Of a stretch of DNA of 52,637 bases, positions 3,819 to 34,011 are shown one piece after another. Position 1 is the first letter of the stretch. The number at the start of each line of letters is the position of its first letter. The notes under the pieces are model-generated. The model did no database searches, had not been told where the DNA came from, and saw only the letters and a list, made by a program, of their open reading frames with translations. Origin of the DNA: an uncultured Paraprevotella sp. (lineage in GTDB: Bacteria > Bacteroidota > Bacteroidia > Bacteroidales > Bacteroidaceae); assembly GCA_944320775.1 (NCBI GenBank), contig CALUIV010000019.1:1-52637 (forward strand), read 5' to 3'. Made by a program: the position numbers and the translations under genes.

Positions 3819-3996
3819 TATTATTGGCCAAAGATACCACACACGATTCTTTAACGGAGTTAATATAATCAAGAAATATACGAGGATTGATACATTCTCC
3901 ATTATGACGTATGGTCATATGCAAATGTTCCCCGGTGCTACGCCCCGTATTGCCTGAAATTCCGACTACATTGCCAGTAAGCATCCAAAATTGGCG
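3811..3996 (-). pseudogene. C-terminal remnant of an M23 (LytM-type) peptidase
   Basis: Reading the minus strand gives GNVVGISGNTGRSTGEHLHM, then INPRIFLDYINSVKESC and a TGA at 3811-3813. The SGNTGRSTGxHLH block is the hallmark of M23 metallopeptidases; its HxH supplies zinc ligands. Only about 60 codons remain. Upstream the frame is closed by a TAA at 3997-3999, and the first zinc motif (HxxxD) is missing. The piece is therefore the tail of a lost cell-wall endopeptidase gene. It overlaps the end of the convergent membrane protein gene by 8 bases. Confidence 0.7.
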
Positions 3997-4112
3997 TTAC
4001 AGCAGAAAAAAATATATGCTTGATGATAAAAAGTTCAAACATCATGATAAGCCTCCTTTACATGTATATCGTAACTAATGGATTTTAATTCATAAGATTT
4101 TTTGAAGGACTA

Positions 4113-4455
4113 GATGAACGCAGAAAATATTCTATTGGATAAATTCTTAAATTTAAACAGCATATAAGAATCAATGACAAAAGTAAAATCCTCAAATTTA
4201 GGTTCACGCCTAACAATGTGAATGGTCAACCGTTCAAGCAGAATAAAATTCTGAATAACATCAAAGGAAAGAGAAATATATTCTCAATACGCTGTTTGAT
4301 AACCGTTTTCCTATCGGTATACAGATTGTCATTAAGACTAAAATAACATGAGAAACTCCTTGATGAGTATTATCAACAAATAATACTCAAGAAAAAGGTC
4401 TTGATTGAAATGGGCAATACTGTCTATATCTTCCTGATAATATTTCTTAATATAT
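4113..4455 (-). pseudogene. Decayed, unidentified reading frame downstream of the GNAT remnant
   Basis: The minus strand shows open segments that read like protein rather than noise: YYQEDIDSIAHFNQDLFLEY (about 4346-4450) and FILLERLTIHIVRREPKFED to IFSAFI (4113-4283). They are separated by several stop codons between 4284 and 4345 and closed by TAG at 4110-4112. They look like pieces of a gene that has accumulated nonsense mutations. I do not recognise the family, and chance open frames in AT-rich DNA cannot be excluded. Confidence 0.3.
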
Positions 4456-4928
4456 CTAACTATAACTATCAGTTTTCAATATTAATTCCATTTCATTTGT
4501 TTTACAAATAAAGCCAAAAGAAGAATATAAGTGTTTACCATATTCGCTACTATTCAGCCATATTTTTTTATATTGTGGTTGTTAGCATATTTAATAATTT
4601 CTTGCAATAGCAACTTAGCCAACCCTTGTTCTCTGAATTCTGGACGAGTAAACACATTCAAGATGTATCCCTCTTTCCCTTTTAAATTCTCTGGATAAGG
4701 AATACGATTAAACAAGCACATGGATACAATGGATATTATCTCATTATTATCGATTACTCCGTAACATATAAGACTTTTATTGATACAGGAGAGAAAATAT
4801 TCCTTTGTTGATTTTTCTAAATATTTCAGATTCGTGTTAGTAGAAATCTCTCCGAGTTCTTGCAATAAACAAAGTCTTAATTTCCAAAATTGATTTACAT
4901 CTTTATGATTCAAAGTTATGATATCCAT
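4456..4928 (-). pseudogene. GNAT-family N-acetyltransferase, frameshifted in an A7 run
   Basis: The frame starts at 4928 (MDIITLNHKDVNQFWKLRL) and carries a GNAT acetyl-CoA region: YILNVFTRPEFREQGLAKLLL, with the REQGLA variant of Q/RxxGxG/A. It stops early at 4554 after NNHNIKKYG. In the next frame it continues exactly as expected, WLNSSEYGKHLYSSFGF to ELILKTDSYS, with a TAG at 4456-4458. Adding one A to the seven-A run (minus strand, 4563-4569) restores KKIWLNSSEYG and gives a 157-residue protein, normal for the family. It is a recent single-base deletion, a slippage site, or a sequencing error. Confidence 0.8.
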
Positions 4929-5244
4929 AATTCTGTATTTATTGTAAGTTCTATATAATGACCAATATATTCGTTTAATTATTAGAATTATAGCGAAAAA
5001 ATCATTTAAATCACAACATTAAAACGATTACCACTATAGTTACCAAGTTTAAAACAACAAAGTTTTATATTATAATATATAATTGAAGACAAAAAACTGA
5101 CATTGTAACAAATCAATCACACAAATACTATTATTCTAATCCTGTTTCGTTCTGATTGTTTTCGCTACTTCAAGCATAAATACTAAGAGTATGTGAACAA
5201 ACATTTGAAACACTTTTTTCCACATCTGGTATCCTATAACCATT
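4929..5244. other. AT-rich gap with no recognisable gene
   Basis: This stretch lies between the GNAT start and the SatD-like remnant. It contains only short, stop-rich frames. It probably includes what is left of the missing C-terminal part of the SatD-like gene, but I cannot recognise any of it. I see no convincing hairpin terminator. Confidence 0.4.
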
Positions 5245-5421
5245 TTATGAAAACAGAAAAGAAAGTATTGCTTCCACAGACCAAAGTCCTCTCCAAAAAC
5301 CGGGATACGTACCCTGCAAAATTAGAAAGAGATTTTCAACTCTCTGTTTCAGGGAAATAGTCTCTTCTATTCTTAATGAAGTTGAAGATACAATATCGGC
5401 AGAAATGACAGCATACATCAT
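5245..5421 (-). pseudogene. N-terminal remnant of a SatD-family-like protein
   Basis: A 58-codon minus-strand frame begins MMYAVISADIVSSTSLRIEE and continues with VENLFLILQGTYPGFW before running out of family-like sequence and stopping at 5245-5247. The MxAVISADIVSSTSL opening and the YPGFWGRL-like block resemble Bacteroidetes SatD-family proteins of about 210 residues, in which a KGD-containing core follows. Here the core and C-terminus are missing, so the gene is truncated or frameshifted near residue 42-45. Its promoter (5445-5474) and upstream operator-like repeats (5477-5528) are intact, so the fragment may still be transcribed. Family assignment is from memory of the motif and is moderate. 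Confidence 0.55.
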
Positions 5422-5444
5422 AATCCGTTTTTTATGTTACTGCA

Positions 5445-5474
5445 CAAATATATATAAAGAATTTATTTTTGCAA
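5445..5474 (-). promoter_or_regulatory. Promoter of the SatD-like remnant
   Basis: On the minus strand a TTG (5472-5474) is followed after 19 bases by TATATTTG (5445-5452), a match to the Bacteroidetes -33/-7 pattern. The -7 box ends 23 bases before the ATG at 5421. Confidence 0.6.
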
Positions 5475-5476
5475 TA

Positions 5477-5528
5477 AATTATAAGCTATAAAACTTATAA
5501 TGCCAAATTATAAGCTAATCAACTTATA
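5477..5528. repeat. Two 23-bp direct repeats with internal dyads, probable operator pair
   Basis: AATTATAAGCTA-NNN-AACTTATA occurs at 5477-5499 and again at 5506-5528, identical in all 20 defined bases and 29 bp apart. Each copy contains the inverted repeat TATAAG-N8-CTTATA. The pair lies directly upstream of the -33 element of the SatD-like remnant, where a dimeric helix-turn-helix regulator would bind. The TATxxx-N8-xxxATA geometry resembles HipB-type operators. No matching regulator gene remains next to it. Confidence 0.65.
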
Positions 5529-6170
5529 TTTTCCTCCTCTGTAACATATATCCCCATGTAAATTAATCCGTTTCTTACAAAATGACACTTTGCCATTTAA
5601 CCCCTTCTATACTCCCTAATTTCCGCCCTCACTTCGACCTCATTCCAAATAATGAAATCCTGAGCTATAAAAATCCAGATAAATCACTATCATACAACAA
5701 ATTAAGCAACAAAAAGACGAACTAATACGAAGACAATCTGGAAAGAAAAACACCGGGAAAAGAGCAATAAAAACAAAATCCATTGCTTCTGTTTCACGAG
5801 ATCGGCATCAGATTTTCATGAGTTCGGGAAGAACTTTTCATGTCATCGGCATCACTTCGACGTGTATCCTCGAATATAATCGCATGAAAAACAGTATAAC
5901 AGGACAAAAATAAAGGATCTGAAGGTATAATAAAAGAAAAACAGAACAAAGATTTTTTCTATTTCGCAAAATACTCCAATTAAACAAGAAAGCAAAAGCA
6001 ATGTTTTTAAAGCAAAAAGATAGCAAAAACCCATCAAAGAATATCTTTCAGCAAAATCATGATTAACCATACAGCCACGTACCGAAAGGGAGACAAGCGG
6101 TATCGAATCCTGCCAAAAAAGGCTTCTGCTTGTCAGGATAGCATTCCCGACAGGCAAAAGCCAGTATGCA
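5529..6170. other. Intergenic region, no gene recognised
   Basis: This 640-base AT-rich stretch carries only low-complexity hydrophobic frames on the minus strand that overlap the end of the DUF4112 gene and show no family features. A short direct repeat, ATCGGCATCA, occurs near 5801-5810 and 5841-5850. I see no tRNA, clear terminator or promoter. Confidence 0.4.
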
Positions 6171-6761
6171 TCAGAAACTTGCAAACAGATTGCTGAAAAA
6201 ATCTGCAATCAGGGTGCCAAGGTAAGCCACGAATTTCACTAAATAATAAATGGCCACACAGAACAGGATAATCATGATTCCGGTCCAAATGGCTTTCCGG
6301 TTTACTTCCTGAATCACTTCCTTGTCGTCTTCGACAAAGCCGACAATCAGTCTGCGGTTCTGCGCAAAAGAACGGTTGAACACATCCACGATGTCACCAA
6401 TCCAAAAGGGAATCAGTCCTAAGGCCACATCGCGCAACACATTGTAAATGACGGCAAGGGTCAAAGGCAGGGAACGAACCTTGCACGCGGCCACATAGAT
6501 AAAGGGAAAAACGAAAACCGAAGTCAGCATATCGCCTATTCCCGGGGCAAAGAACCCGACAATTGCATCGAGATAAAATCTATCCATCCATTTGGCTACA
6601 GACTTAGTAACCTTGTAGGACAAAGACCGCTCAATTTCCGTGCGACGCTGTTGCTTTTTCATCTGCCGTTGTTGTTCCGGCTGATCCTTTTCTTTGGTGT
6701 TGTACCGTCCTGAATTCTGCTGAGCCCGACGCCGTCTGTTGCTTTGCATTTCCTCACTCAT
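6171..6761 (-). CDS. DUF4112 domain-containing membrane protein
   Basis: The 196-residue protein has a very basic, glutamine-rich N-terminus (residues 1-45, RRRRAQQ and QMKKQQRR) followed by a DUF4112 core. The core has MDRFYLDAIVGFFAPGIGDM, then a hydrophobic helix, then NVLRDVALGLIPFWIGDIVD and FNRSFAQNRRLIV. The paired PGxGD / IPxxGD turns and two or three membrane helices are typical of the family, whose function is unknown. A last helix (about 160-185) is strongly hydrophobic. The start lies 12 bases after the SDR stop, so it is the last gene of the minus-strand operon that begins with the steroid 5-alpha-reductase homologue. It might be a passenger or assist a membrane-linked pathway; the sequence does not tell. 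Confidence 0.8.
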   Translation of the reverse strand: MSEEMQSNRRRRAQQNSGRYNTKEKDQPEQQRQMKKQQRRTEIERSLSYKVTKSVAKWMDRFYLDAIVGFFAPGIGDMLTSVFVFPFIYVAACKVRSLPLTLAVIYNVLRDVALGLIPFWIGDIVDVFNRSFAQNRRLIVGFVEDDKEVIQEVNRKAIWTGIMIILFCVAIYYLVKFVAYLGTLIADFFSNLFASF

Positions 6762-6773
6762 AATTCGATTTCT

Positions 6774-7634
6774 CTACTCCGTTTTCATCAGCCATCGCGC
6801 CACAATTTGCTCCGTACGCTCCCACAATTCATCCGACTGCGGATGATGCAGGTAATGTGGCGACAGCGTTTTGGGATGACCGCTGGCAAACAGGCAACCC
6901 GTTGTCGCAGCCCATGCGGCATCGAGCAACAGCCGAATGGCCGTATCTGCTCCCTGACGGGGCGTACGGATAAAAGGACGGAAAAAGATGTCGGTCAACG
7001 GATCAAACCATTGATGCATGGTAATGATGTCGGTCGAAACAATACCCGGATCGGCCGCATTCACCATGATGCCCGACGTCCGGCAGATTTCGGCCAGCTT
7101 CAGACTGAAAAGAGTCAGGGCCAGTTTCGTATTGCTATAAATCGGAATGCGCCAGAAACCGCCTTTCCGCCCCATCGTAAAGAAATCGGGGAATTCCAGC
7201 TTACCTATGGCATAGGTGCACGACACCATATTGACAATACGGCTTCCGGACGACATAAGAGGTAACAGTTTTCGGGTCAGCAAATAAGGTCCCACATAGT
7301 TGACACTCACCGTACGTTCCAGACCGTCGGCCGTCGTACGCCGGGCAGTTTCCATCGTTCCGGCATTGTTCATCAACAAGGCTATCGGTTCGGCCCGACG
7401 CAACAAAAAATCGGCCACGCCGGCAACTATATCCAGTGAAGCTAAATCCAAATGCAGACATTCTATCCACGTGTTACCGGTTTCGGCAATAATCTGCTGT
7501 CGTACGTTTTCCGCCTTTTCCATATCCCTGCAGGCCATCACAATGGGATAACCTGCCTGCGCTACGGCGCGGGTAATCTCCGACCCCATACCGCCGTCGG
7601 CCCCCGTAATAACGGCTAAACCTTTTTTATCCAT
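6774..7634 (-). CDS. Short-chain dehydrogenase/reductase, candidate 3beta-hydroxysteroid dehydrogenase
   Basis: This is a classical SDR: cofactor motif TGADGGMG at residues 10-17, NNAG in the middle, catalytic Ser in NMVSC and YSNTK as YxxxK. It also shows features of the retinol-dehydrogenase-like subgroup (VNYVGPYLLTRKLLP). The start at 7634 is preferred over the ATG at 7646, because GGAGGAG lies just before it and MDKKGLAVITG fits the family N-terminus. It sits 29 bases after the OYE gene and in the same operon as a steroid 5-alpha-reductase homologue. SDRs in this position in Parabacteroides merdae and Odoribacteraceae have been reported as 3beta-HSDHs that reduce 3-oxo bile acids. The fold is certain and the substrate is inferred from context. 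Confidence 0.85.
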   Translation of the reverse strand: MDKKGLAVITGADGGMGSEITRAVAQAGYPIVMACRDMEKAENVRQQIIAETGNTWIECLHLDLASLDIVAGVADFLLRRAEPIALLMNNAGTMETARRTTADGLERTVSVNYVGPYLLTRKLLPLMSSGSRIVNMVSCTYAIGKLEFPDFFTMGRKGGFWRIPIYSNTKLALTLFSLKLAEICRTSGIMVNAADPGIVSTDIITMHQWFDPLTDIFFRPFIRTPRQGADTAIRLLLDAAWAATTGCLFASGHPKTLSPHYLHHPQSDELWERTEQIVARWLMKTE

Positions 7635-7663
7635 AATCTCCTCCACTCATCATTTAGATACAT

Positions 7664-8887
7664 TTATCCGCGCTTTTCCAACTCGTCAATTTCCCTCTGT
7701 ACAGCCGGCGGCAACGGTTCCTTCAGATGACAATGACAGGCCATATCGAGGGAATACATCCGGGCGATGCAATAATTGCTGTGCAGACAACCGCAACGGG
7801 CCTGTTCCTCACGCTGCATGCGGTTGACGAAATCGGGTTCGTGAATCAGGGCACGCCCCATCTGGACGGCCTCAAACCCATCATCAAGTACCTCATCAAT
7901 CTTTTCACGGGCCACAAGACCGCCGACATAGACGAGCGGCATCCGGATACGCTCCCGGAATTTCAGGGCATCTTCCAGAAAATAGGCCTCACGGAAAGGT
8001 ACGGTAGGTATCATGAAACGGCCAGCCAGCCGTACGCCATACTTCAGCCACCAGCTATCCATATAATGGGTCATGGTGCGGATCGGCATCTCGCCACGCA
8101 TAACATACATCGGCGCCCGACTGACAAAACCGCCGCTGAGCACCAGGGCATGCGCTCCGCTTTGCGCCAGCCGTTCGGCTACGAGCAGACTTTCGTCGAT
8201 CTCCATACCACCCTTGAATCCGTCGCGCATATTCATCTTGACCAACACAGCCAGATCGTCTCCGGCAGCTTCCATCACTTCCGACATGACCATATCCATA
8301 AAACGCATCCGATTGGCCAGTGAACCGCCGTATTCATCTTTCCGGCGGTTGGTGTAGGGCGACAGAAACTGACTGATCAGATAACCATGACCGGCATGAA
8401 TCTCTACGGCATCAAAACCGGATTCACGGGCCAGCCGCACGGCATCGCCATAGGCCCGGGCCAATCCGGGAAGTTCGGCGGCACGCAAACCGCGGACCAG
8501 CGTGGGCGAATAAAGATTAAAACCGGAACTGGCTCCAACAGGCAGACAGCCGCAAATGCTCTTGTGCGACATATTGCCGCAATGTCCCAGCTGAATGCCG
8601 ACCGCAGCTCCTTCGGTATGAACCGCATCGGTCAACCGGCGCAGACCGGGAACTATCTCCGGACGCATCCAAAGCTGACGGTCGAACGACAGGCCGCTCT
8701 GACAGACTGCGGCATAGGCCACCGTGGTCATTCCGATGCCACCGGCCGCCACCGAACGATGGTAATCTAATAATTGCTGCGAAGGAACATTGCCGGGACA
8801 CATGCTTTCAAAAGCAGCCGAACGAATGGTTCGGTTGCGCAGCGTCAACGGACCGAAAGTCACCGGCGTAAAAAGTTTGGATTTCAT
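7664..8887 (-). CDS. Old-yellow-enzyme family NADH:flavin oxidoreductase, candidate steroid 5beta-reductase
   Basis: The 407-residue protein is a single OYE (TIM-barrel, FMN) domain: LFTPVTFGPLTLRNRTIRSA at the N-terminus, IQLGHCGN, the HAGHGYLISQFLSPYTNRR catalytic and active-site block with EYGGS after it, and YVGGL plus VQMGRALIHEPD for phosphate binding. The C-terminus has a Cys/His cluster (CGCLHSNYC and ACHCH), reminiscent of the 4Fe-4S site of BaiCD/dienoyl-CoA-reductase enzymes but with altered spacing. It lacks the second FAD/NAD domain of those enzymes. The neighbours, 17 bases after the 5-alpha-reductase gene and 29 before the SDR, suggest reduction of the C4-C5 double bond of 3-oxo-delta4 steroids or bile acids. 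The OYE fold is certain; the substrate is inferred. Confidence 0.88.
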   Translation of the reverse strand: MKSKLFTPVTFGPLTLRNRTIRSAAFESMCPGNVPSQQLLDYHRSVAAGGIGMTTVAYAAVCQSGLSFDRQLWMRPEIVPGLRRLTDAVHTEGAAVGIQLGHCGNMSHKSICGCLPVGASSGFNLYSPTLVRGLRAAELPGLARAYGDAVRLARESGFDAVEIHAGHGYLISQFLSPYTNRRKDEYGGSLANRMRFMDMVMSEVMEAAGDDLAVLVKMNMRDGFKGGMEIDESLLVAERLAQSGAHALVLSGGFVSRAPMYVMRGEMPIRTMTHYMDSWWLKYGVRLAGRFMIPTVPFREAYFLEDALKFRERIRMPLVYVGGLVAREKIDEVLDDGFEAVQMGRALIHEPDFVNRMQREEQARCGCLHSNYCIARMYSLDMACHCHLKEPLPPAVQREIDELEKRG

Positions 8888-8904
8888 GATTTCTCTTTTT
8901 CAGG

Positions 8905-9672
8905 TTAATAAATAAATGGTATCAGCCGCTTGCGTCGACCTACCCGACTGCCGAACTCAGCCAAATAGCGTTTGCGGATAGCATGTGCCCGGGGAGCCAG
9001 ATTGGCAAAGGTCCACCAGACGAAAACCCATGCAGCCGGTGAGGCAGTCAGCAGAGCAAAACCGGTCCATTCAACCAGTTCGCCCAAATAATTGGCCGAC
9101 GTCACAAAACGATACAGTCCTTTCTCGGGCAGATAGTGGGCCGTATCGCCCGGCTGGCGCAAATGTCGGATCACGTGATCCGAATGCCAGTTGATAGCCA
9201 TTCCGGCAAAGAATACCAGCAGTCCGATCCAGGCATGCGGTTGCAGAAAATAGCGGAACCCTTCAGAAGCATAATCAACCGAAGGAAAATAGAAAAGGCC
9301 GCCGGCCTGCATCAGTCCGTTCAACACGTTGAACACAATGCCCATGGACATAATCGAAACCGGCATCCTGCTCTTGCCCGTAATCAGAAACGGAAATACG
9401 AATGAACGTTGGAAATAATGCAATTCGAACAACAGAAAAAAAATGAAAACCGGATTGCTACAACCCACTCCACTCAGCCACCACAGAACGAGCATGACGA
9501 CAAATACGGGCATTTCCATCAGCATCCAGGCCCAGCGGTTATCTACAGCATAGCCCCAAGCCGATGTACGGAAAAGCCCGTAGCCGGCACGGACAAAATA
9601 AAGGGCAATAAAAACAAACAGAGCACAGACACTCATGCCCCAAAGAAAAAATTGAAAAGCTGTATGCGACAT
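8905..9672 (-). CDS. Steroid 5-alpha-reductase family membrane protein (candidate 5AR)
   Basis: The protein has about six to seven membrane helices and the C-terminal signature of 3-oxo-5-alpha-steroid 4-dehydrogenases: INWHSDHVIRHLR, YLPEKGLYRFVTSANYLGE, then WTGFALLT and AHAIRKRYLAEF at the end. LHYFQRSFVFPFL in the first half is also family-like. From ATG 9672 it is 255 residues, the normal size. The frame extends to an ATG at 9720, but a -7 box (9695-9702) lies inside that extension, so 9672 is preferred. The known reaction is NADPH-dependent reduction of delta4-3-oxo steroids to the 5-alpha product at the membrane. It is the first gene of an operon with OYE, SDR and DUF4112 genes. Confidence 0.88.
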   Translation of the reverse strand: MSHTAFQFFLWGMSVCALFVFIALYFVRAGYGLFRTSAWGYAVDNRWAWMLMEMPVFVVMLVLWWLSGVGCSNPVFIFFLLFELHYFQRSFVFPFLITGKSRMPVSIMSMGIVFNVLNGLMQAGGLFYFPSVDYASEGFRYFLQPHAWIGLLVFFAGMAINWHSDHVIRHLRQPGDTAHYLPEKGLYRFVTSANYLGELVEWTGFALLTASPAAWVFVWWTFANLAPRAHAIRKRYLAEFGSRVGRRKRLIPFIY

Positions 9673-9702: not shown

Positions 9703-9777
9703 ACATTTATTTTCTAACATTTATTGCGTCAATAGAAAGAAAATCTATATCTTTAACTCAGAATAATCATAAAAAAG

Positions 9778-16989: not shown

Positions 16990-17724
16990 TCACTTCTTCA
17001 CGGGAAAAACATCGCGATAACGCTCGCGGATTTCCCGAATCCGTTCAGCAGAAAGCGGTTCAACACCTTTCAAGGGATAATCCAATCCTAATTCTTCGTA
17101 TTTGAACACACCCATCGTGTGATAAGGCAACCACTCTATCTTCTGAATCACAGTATACGGACGCAGAAAATCAACCAATGCATCCAATGCTGCATCATCA
17201 TCCGTCAGACCGGGTACAACCACATGGCGCAACCAAACCGCAATACCGCGACGTTGCAGCTCATCGAGCAGAAGCAGTGCGTTCCGTCCGTCACTGCCAC
17301 AAACTTTCCGGCAACGGTCCGCATCAAGTGCCTTGATATCCAGTAAGACCAAATCGGTATAATCCAACACGGCCAACGTCTTCTCATTATAAATTGCTCC
17401 AGATGTATCAAGTGCAGTATGTAATCCAGCTTCCTTACAGAGCCGGAAATATTCCCGCGCAAAATCAGGTTGCATCAAAGGTTCACCACCAGTAAGTGTC
17501 ACCCCGCCGCTCTTAATGAAATTTTTATATTTCAACACTTCGTCCAAAAGTTCCTGCGGTGTGTACTCATACTTCACAGCCCGATGCGCATCCCACGTAT
17601 CCGGATTGTGACAATACTGGCAACGAAGCGGACAACCTTGAAGGAACGTCACAAAACGAATTCCGGGACCGTCTACGGTCCCGAAACTCTCTAATGAATG
17701 TATTTTACCTTTAATCAAATTCAT
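16990..17724 (-). CDS. pflA: Pyruvate formate-lyase-activating enzyme (radical SAM)
   Basis: This glycyl-radical-enzyme activase has the radical SAM cluster motif CPLRCQYC (CxxxCxxC) in TFLQGCPLRCQYCHNPDTW, and LTGGEPLMQP for SAM binding. Residues KIHSLESFGTVDGPGIRFVT are the usual N-terminus, so the start is placed at ATG 17724 (MNLIKGKIH); the open frame reaches 17778 but the extra 18 residues are not family-like. It uses S-adenosylmethionine and a 4Fe-4S cluster to put a glycyl radical on PflB, whose gene lies 80 bases upstream in the same operon. Confidence 0.93.
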   Translation of the reverse strand: MNLIKGKIHSLESFGTVDGPGIRFVTFLQGCPLRCQYCHNPDTWDAHRAVKYEYTPQELLDEVLKYKNFIKSGGVTLTGGEPLMQPDFAREYFRLCKEAGLHTALDTSGAIYNEKTLAVLDYTDLVLLDIKALDADRCRKVCGSDGRNALLLLDELQRRGIAVWLRHVVVPGLTDDDAALDALVDFLRPYTVIQKIEWLPYHTMGVFKYEELGLDYPLKGVEPLSAERIREIRERYRDVFPVKK

Positions 17725-17804
17725 TCGTTTGGTCTTTTCAAAAATATTCAATCCTATTTCGGGAACTACACTTGACAAGGCAGTTCACACTATTTTGGAA
17801 TGGA

Positions 17805-20045
17805 TTATAAAGAATGGTTGATCGTACGTGAGATCACATCCAACTGCTGTTCGCGAGTCAATTTCACGAAGTTAACCGCATAACCGGAAACACGGATAGT
17901 CAACTGAGGATATTTCTCAGGATGTTCCATAGCATCGATCAGCAACTCCTTGTCGAATACGTTCACATTCAAGTGCTGACCGCCATCCGGAGTGAAATAA
18001 CCGTTCAACAGGTTCACCAGATTCTCTACCTGCACGTCACGCTCCTTGCCGAGTGTCGCCGGAGAAATGGCGAAGGTATAAGAAATACCGTCGTGTGCAT
18101 GCTGGAACGGTAACTTGGCAACAGAAGCCAAAGCTGCAACCGCACCCTTCACATCGCGTCCGTTCATCGGGTTGGCACCTGGAGCAAACGGAGTACCGCC
18201 AGGACGACCGTCAGGAGTAGTACCGGTCTTCTTACCATAAACCACATTACTTGTAATTGTAAGGATTGACTGAGTCGGAGTAGCATTGCGATAAGTCTCG
18301 TGCTGACGGAGGTAATCCATGAATTTCTCAGTAATCTCTACAGCAATGCGATCGGTACGGTCGTCGTTGTTACCAAACGGAACATATTCGCCTTCACGCT
18401 CGAAATCAACAGCCAGACCACGCTCGTCACGAATAACCTTCACCTTGCAATCGCGGATAGCAGCCAAAGAATCAGCTACGATTGAAAGGCCCGCAATTCC
18501 CGTTGCGCGGATACGTTTCACATCGCCATCGTGCAAAGCCATCTCATAAGCCTCATAGTCATACTTATCGTGCATGTAGTGGATAATCTTCAGAGCGTTG
18601 ACATAAACCTTGGCCAACCAGCGCATCATCTGCTCATACTTCTCCATCACTTCATTGTAATCGAGATATTCGCTGGTAATCGGCTCGAACTTCGGAGCCA
18701 CCTGAACACCACTGCGCTCGTCGCGACCACCGTTGATGGCATAAAGCAAACACTTAGCCAGGTTGGCACGTGCACCGAAGAACTGCATCTGCTTACCGAT
18801 CTTCATCGGAGAAACACAGCAGGCAATTCCGTAGTCATCACCGTAATCAACACGCATCAGGTCGTCGTTCTCATACTGAATAGCAGAAGTGTCGATAGAA
18901 ACCTTAGCACAGAATTTCTTCCAGTTTTCCGGCAACTTATCTGCCCAAAGAACGGTCAAGTTTGGTTCTGGAGCAGGACCGAGATTGTACAACGTGTGGA
19001 GGTAGCGGAAACAAGTCTTAGTCACCAGTGTACGGCCATCTACACCCATACCGCCCAATGATTCAGTTACCCAAACCGGATCTCCCGAGAACAGATCATT
19101 ATATTCAGGAGTACGCAGGAAACGAACGATACGCAACTTGATGATCATCTGATCTACAAGTTCCTGTGCCTCTTCTTCGGTCAGTTTACCTTCCTTAATA
19201 TCTTTTTCAATATAAATATCCAGGAATGTAGCGGTACGGCCGATAGACATTGCAGCACCATCCTGATCCTTTACAGCTGCCAGATAAGCCAGATATACAA
19301 ACTGAACGGCCTCACGAGCATCCTTTGCCGGACGGGTTACATCAAATCCATAAGCAGCACACATCTTTTCGAAATCCTTCAAAGCCTTGATCTGCTCTGT
19401 AATTTCCTCACGGCTACGAATAGTTTCTTCTGTCATCTCCTGAATGTCCAGACGATGCTGGAAATTCTTTTTCTCTTCAATCAGAATGGTAGTACCGTAA
19501 AGCGCAACACGACGATAGTCACCGATAATACGGCCACGACCGTAAGCATCCGGCAAACCAGTAATGATTGCTGAACGACGGGCTGCCAGCATTTCTTCCG
19601 TATATGCAGAGAAAACACCTTCATTGTGTGTTTTGCGGTATTTTGTAAAAATCTCTTTAGTCATCGGATCCAAATGATAACCATAAGCTTCCAAGCTGTT
19701 TTCTACCATACGGATACCACCTTTTGGGAAAATACCACGCTTCAAAGGAGCATCAGTCTGCAAACCGACAATCACCTCATTTTCCTGATCAATATAACCC
19801 GGTCCGTAAGTAGTGATTGTCTGAGGCAATTTGGTTTCTGTATCATAAACGCCTTTCTCACGCTCCACCTTGAACATTTCAGTCAGTTTGTTCCAGACCT
19901 TACGGGTTTTCTCTGAAGAAGGTTTCAAGAACGAATCATCGCCTTCATACGGAGTATAGTTATTCTGGATGAAGTCTCTTACGTTGATTTCCTTCTTCCA
20001 AACATTGCCCTTAAAGCCGGCCCAGCTTTCATGTGTAAATTCCAT
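17805..20045 (-). CDS. pflB: Formate C-acetyltransferase (pyruvate formate-lyase)
   Basis: The 746-residue enzyme converts pyruvate and CoA to acetyl-CoA and formate under anaerobiosis. The active-site cysteine pair is in [10 protein letters not shown] (about residue 410), and the radical glycine is G721 in [10 protein letters not shown] near the C-terminus. Length and start ([13 protein letters not shown]) are normal. pflA follows. A -7 box TAACTTTG (20099-20106) and a perfect inverted repeat (20129-20146) lie upstream. The formate made here can feed purT, encoded about 18 kb away in this window. Confidence 0.97.
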
Positions 20046-33851: not shown

Positions 33852-33922
33852 GGTGCCCTGACCGAGAGGCTAGGTAGCGGTCTGCAAAACCGTCCACAGC
33901 AGTTCGAATCTGCTGGGCACCT
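33852..33922 (+). tRNA. tRNA-Cys (GCA), first copy
   Basis: Acceptor stem GGTGCCC/GGGCACC with discriminator T, anticodon loop CTGCAAA giving anticodon GCA, and T arm AGCAG-TTCGAAT-CTGCT. Length 71 nt, no encoded CCA. Confidence 0.95.
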
Positions 33923-33940
33923 CTTCTCAAAAGCAATAAC

Positions 33941-34011
33941 GGTGCCCTGACCGAGAGGCTAGGTAGCGGTCTGCAAAACCGTCCACAGCAGTTCGAATCT
34001 GCTGGGCACCT
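33941..34011 (+). tRNA. tRNA-Cys (GCA), second copy
   Basis: Sequence identical to the copy at 33852-33922, with the same GCA anticodon and cloverleaf. Followed directly by a strong terminator. Confidence 0.95.

Follow-up and report, generated by a model that had tools for sequence, protein, structure and literature searches.

What does a run of four open reading frames (ORFs) on the minus strand of a contig from an uncultured Paraprevotella sp. encode, and how many of the four belong together? The contig, 52,637 nucleotides long and analysed over its whole length, is referred to as the window; it belongs, as contig 19, to a draft genome of 2.82 Mb that is 91% complete. In the direction of transcription the run consists of a membrane steroid 5-alpha-reductase (5AR), a flavoenzyme of the old yellow enzyme type (OYE), a short-chain dehydrogenase/reductase (SDR) and a DUF4112 protein. 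A sequence-only reading had described an operon of these four families with gaps of 17, 29 and 12 bases (5AR/OYE, OYE/SDR and SDR/DUF4112 respectively), and this description was confirmed by the ORF coordinates and by Pfam matches to Steroid_dh (PF02544; 119 bits against a gathering score of 22.6, E 2e-34), Oxidored_FMN (PF00724; 174 bits, E 6e-51), adh_short (PF00106; 97 bits, E 1e-27) and DUF4112 (PF13430; 46 bits, E 6e-12). We consider it very probable that the first three genes form the Bacteroidales cassette for steroid A/B-ring epimerisation. The window cassette is a further example of an already described cluster, in which 5AR is accompanied by a 5-beta-reductase (5BR) and a 3-beta-hydroxysteroid dehydrogenase (3beta-HSDH).

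The first gene of the cassette is related to 5-alpha-reductases of solved structure, with phmmer matches to PbSRD5A (7c83; E 2e-44, residues 6-254) and to human SRD5A2 (7bw1; E 9e-33). Its start was placed at 9672 rather than at a longer in-frame ATG at 9720, in agreement with most of 17 aligned relatives. E53 and Y86 of the window protein align with the residues that PMC7815742 describes as the catalytic pair of SRD5A2, E57 and Y91. The Gln of the QEY signature, which the same source calls highly conserved (PMC7815742), is replaced in the window: Q56 of SRD5A2 corresponds to M52. This position and the one equivalent to H231 were counted over 103 loci, 99 of them with a readable region, some rows being one gene fetched twice. 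Met was found at the Gln position in 99 of 99 rows, and the H231 position held Ile in 91, His in 4, Leu in 2, Thr in 1 and Asn in 1. The Bacteroidota 5ARs examined are therefore to be flagged as MEY rather than QEY enzymes. Because relatives in Parabacteroides, Odoribacter and Phocaeicola also carry Met, we infer that the MEY form works in Bacteroidota, and the exchange of Met for Gln is probably compatible with 5AR activity.

The predicted model of the OYE (mean pLDDT 87.6) has OYE-superfamily enzymes as its ten best folds in the PDB (TMq 0.72-0.78); these are single-domain OYEs, together with a two-domain 2-naphthoyl-CoA reductase at rank 8. H164, H167 and Y169 align with YqjM and GkOYE and do not vary in any of the 42 rows compared, and we take the two His to be the substrate-binding pair and the Tyr to be the proton donor of this family. 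C103, C367, H369, C373 and C384 are likewise invariant in all 42. As a separate observation, residues 365-384 (window 7736-7795) contain the pattern C367-x-H369-x-N371-Y372-C373-x10-C384, the same in every one of these rows, and this C-terminal arrangement presumably departs from the 4Fe-4S spacing of dienoyl-CoA reductases.

Classical SDRs are marked by a TGxxxGxG motif and a Ser-Tyr-Lys set. The window SDR contains TGADGGMG as its cofactor motif together with S138, Y166 and K170, these three being invariant in 25 of 25 rows; by this signature it is a classical SDR, and its 3-beta specificity is presumed. We placed its start at ATG 7634, and an in-frame GTG upstream at 7646 is possible.

These three genes recur together well beyond the window. 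With the 5AR as query against 151 genomes of the family, matches were found in 20, of which 17 were full-length, and among these 17 loci (window included) the OYE adjoins in 16 and an SDR start falls within the 1.5 kb flank in 13. A 5AR profile at E 0.001 gave matches in 99 of 344 genomes of the order and 25 of 395 of the phylum, many of them weak and partial; matches above 300 bits occurred in 42 of the 344. A scan of named genomes with the profile confirmed 593 stretches, and we compared the best 80, which are the most similar and not a random sample. All three genes were present in 70 of the 80 loci, 5AR with OYE in 3, 5AR with SDR in 2 and 5AR alone in 5, one of which (L036) lies where its contig ends. 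Where matched, the relatives are 55-71% identical to the window in 5AR and 65-84% in OYE. The full set is found in Parabacteroides (L082, L097 and L099) and in Phocaeicola (L048 and L095), and in Odoribacter L101 the 5AR and OYE are followed by an extra SDR-like ORF and, behind it, by an SDR that is only 39% identical. One of the Parabacteroides loci, L082 of Parabacteroides sp. An277, carries the three genes at 64/79/62% identity; PMC6069880 places this strain under 'Parabacteroides merdae' and gives a value of 92, which we read as 16S identity. The genes that flank the cassette vary widely among its carriers. A block of three genes that is conserved across Bacteroidales cannot be a matter of chance, and the proposal of a 5AR/5BR/3beta-HSDH cluster made by the sequence-only reading is upheld by the protein families, the conserved gene order, the largely intact catalytic residues and these 70 of 80 loci.

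Some variation in the layout was seen as well. Among the 70 complete loci, L044 and L081 hold another gene between OYE and SDR, and L088 has a gap before OYE. L085, L096, L100 and L101 were matched through an SDR at only 32-40% identity with an extra SDR-like ORF in between, so that two SDR-like ORFs follow the OYE in tandem; in L085 and L101 the first of the two shares only 22% identity with the window SDR, a central stretch of which it is missing. In L092 and L093 the 5AR adjoins the SDR with no OYE match, and L060, L061, L071 and L098 have a 5AR with neither an OYE nor an SDR match.

By analogy with published relatives, the OYE, acting as 5BR, would oxidise a 3-oxo-5-beta steroid, for example 3-oxo-lithocholic acid (3-oxo-LCA), to the 3-oxo-delta4 form, or carry out the reverse reaction. 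Next, with a nicotinamide cofactor as reductant, the membrane 5AR would reduce the delta4 bond from its alpha side to give a flat 3-oxo-5-alpha product, and the SDR would reduce the 3-oxo group to a 3-beta-hydroxy 5-alpha ('isoallo') product. In the pathway given in PMC10672800, 3-oxo-LCA is converted to 3-oxo-delta4-LCA by 5BR, then to 3-oxo-alloLCA by 5AR and to isoalloLCA by 3beta-HSDH. According to PMC10382948, isoalloLCA is made from 3-oxo-delta4-LCA by P. merdae, O. laneus and B. dorei, and a 5AR knockout of P. merdae loses the alloLCA products; 5AR is said there to cluster with a predicted 3beta-HSDH and with an NADH:flavin oxidoreductase, the latter hypothesised to be 5BR. We infer the substrate, the direction and the 3-beta stereochemistry in the window strain from these published reactions. 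The strain could convert 3-oxo-delta4 substrates, which may be bile acids, hormones or other sterols.

Several points weigh against assigning the cassette to this pathway. M52 replaces the Gln of QEY at the very position where the human SRD5A2 variants Q56A/L lose activity (PMC7815742). With the BaiCD model NCBIfam NF041087 the OYE scores 175.9 bits, far under the cut-off of 825, and Pfam finds no Pyr_redox domain in the protein, which is to say that the second half of BaiCD is absent; the name 5BR consequently rests on linkage and on the published hypothesis. The window genome has three more SDR matches, weak ones at 29-32% identity. The alignments behind the assignment were made to loci of relatives, as a stand-in for the proteins characterised in P. 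merdae and Odoribacteraceae. Finally, the cassette also has a rumen clade, which suggests substrates beyond bile acids.

This clade was recognised in a quick maximum-likelihood tree of 75 OYE rows with SH-aLRT support only, where 18 rows group together with a support of 100 on a branch of 0.54 (L043, L045, L047, L050, L051, L052, L054, L055, L059, L064, L065, L067, L072, L073, L075, L080, L089 and L094). All five placed loci with rumen, omasum or reticulum in their titles belong to it, as do all seven placed loci with RUG or RUI labels, which we take to denote ruminant genomes; the other six comprise one from horse faeces, one from red deer and four with titles giving no site. A sixth rumen-titled locus, L061, has a 5AR without an OYE match. 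None of the five ruminant colon, caecum or rectum loci falls in the clade (Fisher p 0.008, kinship ignored), and the window OYE lies outside it, as a gut type. A filter for differences between the clade and the other rows passed 27 positions in the OYE, including S172D, S176N, T179F and F254L, at each of which both groups are invariant, the first three being located in the catalytic loop; 4 positions passed in 5AR and 2 in SDR. The tree of 5AR sequences joins these 18 to five more loci without support, and groups 17 of the 18 with L060, L061, L071 and L098 at a support of 91.

Genes of the bile salt hydrolase / penicillin acylase family (CBAH) were compared between all 18 clade genomes and 24 genomes hand-picked from the 57 other rows, mostly metagenome-assembled genomes (MAGs). 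A CBAH match was found in 0 of 18 and 19 of 24 respectively (Fisher p 1e-7, with kinship ignored and completeness not given). This split may partly follow host or lineage. We suggest, tentatively and with less than even confidence, that the clade represents a separate foregut cassette type, one that would epimerise the A ring of feed or plant sterols as natural substrates rather than of host bile, and that would be a candidate for the formation of allocholic acid (alloCA) in the rumen. This suggestion is weakened by the ruminant hindgut genomes, since L058, L066 and L099, three of the five, are missing a CBAH match too. It is weakened further by PMC11193847, in which rumen contents dosed with bile acids showed raised alloCA, a 5-alpha epimer, and bile salt hydrolase genes are reported in rumen MAGs; the rumen branch may thus still act on bile acids that are supplied to it. 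Judged by titles and the beginnings of abstracts, searches on rumen together with 5-alpha-reductase, allo-bile acids or bile salt hydrolase yielded no paper that describes the cassette in the rumen.

A related alternative is that the cassette as a whole acts mainly on steroid hormones or on dietary or plant 3-oxo-delta4 sterols, with bile acids as side substrates. We regard this as rather unlikely, although it has some force: the SRD5A relatives with solved structures are reductases of the steroid-hormone type, gut OYE reductases split into separate hormone and bile-acid clades (PMC12238238), and the rumen-type cassettes sit in the genomes without a CBAH match. However, the published Bacteroidota work consulted (PMC10382948) concerns bile acids, and the window OYE is not of the rumen clade. 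The window genome also has one CBAH gene, which fits a bile-exposed habitat. The genome G159 of the same genus has one as well; the window and G159 are both among the 57 OYE rows outside the rumen clade. Only one gene in the window genome exceeds the Steroid_dh cut-off and only one the Oxidored_FMN cut-off, both of them in the cassette, which speaks for the epimerisation reading.

The origin of the cassette was considered next to its function. Its first three genes had been noted as richer in G+C than the flanking DNA, and transfer had been proposed from this. The richness itself was found: G+C is 0.500 for 5AR, 0.559 for OYE, 0.530 for SDR and 0.467 for DUF4112, against a reference mean of 0.440 (sd 0.048; z of 1.3, 2.5 and 1.9 for the first three) calculated from the 27 genes listed to the right of 9700, so that the four to the left of the operon (0.301-0.410) do not enter it. 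This richness does not point to transfer, since cassette G+C also lies above the flanks in 37 of 47 relatives, by a mean of +2.4 points, the 47 being those loci that passed filters for a compact cassette and more than 3 kb of flank. High G+C is thus habitual for the cassette, and we rejected it as a transfer signal. Recent horizontal acquisition by this strain is, on the whole, doubtful. The patchiness of the OYE, which occurs in 3 of 18 genomes of the genus and in 2 of the 11 more complete ones, in three different settings, would agree with it, as would the restricted occurrence of 5AR in the family given above. On the other hand, the nearest relative is the same-genus G159 (78/85/78% identity in 5AR/OYE/SDR), with which the window OYE pairs at a support of 95, and shuffling of gene order plus losses would be expected to leave the same pattern. 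Using the AddA-like gene and the DUF4112 gene as markers, we also looked through the genus for an empty site of cassette insertion, and no clean one was seen: in the three fetched relatives whose AddA is closest, different genes adjoin it. A scan of nine flanking proteins gave no match to a transposase or integrase family; the one at 149-685 matches a gag-type aspartyl protease family and the one at 2304-3818 matches nothing. Gain and loss, or movement, of the cassette over the history of the group is likely.

That DUF4112 is a functional fourth member, for example a membrane partner of 5AR, is highly improbable: the 12-base gap, the shared strand and the membrane-like sequence speak for it, but tblastn (E 1e-5) gave no DUF4112 match in the fetched stretches of the best 80 named 5AR loci, a clustered homologue was likewise not found around them, and of the 5 same-genus genomes (out of 18) in which DUF4112 occurs, the other four lack an OYE match, nor does the stretch fetched around their DUF4112 hold any gene of the cassette. 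In one such stretch, L148, the DUF4112 ORF itself was missed by the ORF caller. The absence of DUF4112 near the cassettes of relatives makes the unit one of three genes and not four. DUF4112 is a chance downstream neighbour outside the conserved system, perhaps read through from the operon.

Table 1. Positions of the cassette genes, the downstream ORF and the candidate promoter element in the window.
Feature	Position	Strand	Remarks
5AR (membrane steroid 5-alpha-reductase, SRD5A family)	9672-8905	minus	255 aa; PF02544
OYE (single-domain, FMN-dependent-type; presumed 5BR/delta4-dehydrogenase)	8887-7664	minus	407 aa; PF00724
SDR (presumed 3-beta-hydroxysteroid dehydrogenase)	7634-6774	minus	286 aa; PF00106
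DUF4112 membrane-like protein	6761-6171	minus	196 aa; PF13430
TATATTTG, candidate Bacteroides-type -7 box	9702-9695	minus	22 bases before 5AR ATG

A single promoter had been proposed in front of the operon. The word TATATTTG, which we take to be a -7 box motif of the Bacteroides type, is present there (Table 1), and it is a plausible promoter element by its sequence and place. Its presence is weak evidence taken alone, as TATATTTG occurs 6 times in the window against 3.07 expected and 6 was reached in 13 of 100 shuffles. Scans gave no excess of sigma-70 promoters (2 versus 5.3 in shuffles) or of terminators (8 versus 6.7). A repeat scan found short two-copy repeat families around the cassette, and three repeat copies with a 22-base spacing lie at 5792-5854. 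These last fall in an AT-rich, gene-poor stretch (3819-6170; G+C down to 0.26) that also holds a 124-aa GNAT-like ORF. Elsewhere in the window, one ORF (995-2257) fuses a DUF1810 domain with an ADP-ribosylglycohydrolase domain, and a glycyl-radical enzyme of the pyruvate formate lyase family stands beside a radical SAM protein, presumably its activase (16990-20045). Two tandem tRNA genes of equal Rfam score (33852-34011) were the only matches of the window to Rfam at gathering scores.

Reported effects of flat 3-beta bile acids like isoalloLCA are the promotion of regulatory T cells (PMC12697870) and the inhibition of Gram-positive pathogens (PMC10382948), which makes it useful to know which gut species carry the full cassette. 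The comparison made here also corrects two tempting additions to the reading of the operon, the membership of DUF4112 and the use of G+C as a sign of transfer. The rumen branch makes the question of the native substrate testable, and it is a more surprising lead than the window cassette.

Compared with known systems, the window 5AR resembles PbSRD5A (7c83) and human SRD5A2 (7bw1) over nearly its full length, retains both Glu and Tyr from the catalytic motif as well as 7 of the 8 listed NADPH positions, and differs from them by Met for the QEY Gln and Ile at the H231 position. With BaiCD and other Fe-S flavoenzymes of the 2,4-dienoyl-CoA reductase type, of which BaiCD acts on a 3-oxo bile acid CoA and oxidises C4-C5 (PMC7371122), the window OYE shares the N-terminal OYE barrel; its 407 residues lack the Pyr_redox half, and the C-terminal Cys/His patterns are not alike. 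The gut steroid-hormone 5-beta-reductase ci2350 (PMC12238238) belongs to the same OYE-type flavoenzyme family and reduces delta4-3-ketosteroids, but it has N166 and S171 where the window OYE has G168 and Q173, the positions being assigned by their offset from the catalytic Tyr. The closest likeness in gene content is to the Bacteroidota 5AR/5BR/3beta-HSDH cluster. Here the window differs in the DUF4112 gene that follows the cassette and in that its activity is a prediction from sequence; the three families are the same, side by side on a single strand and in the order that is also found in the Parabacteroides, Phocaeicola and Bacteroides loci.

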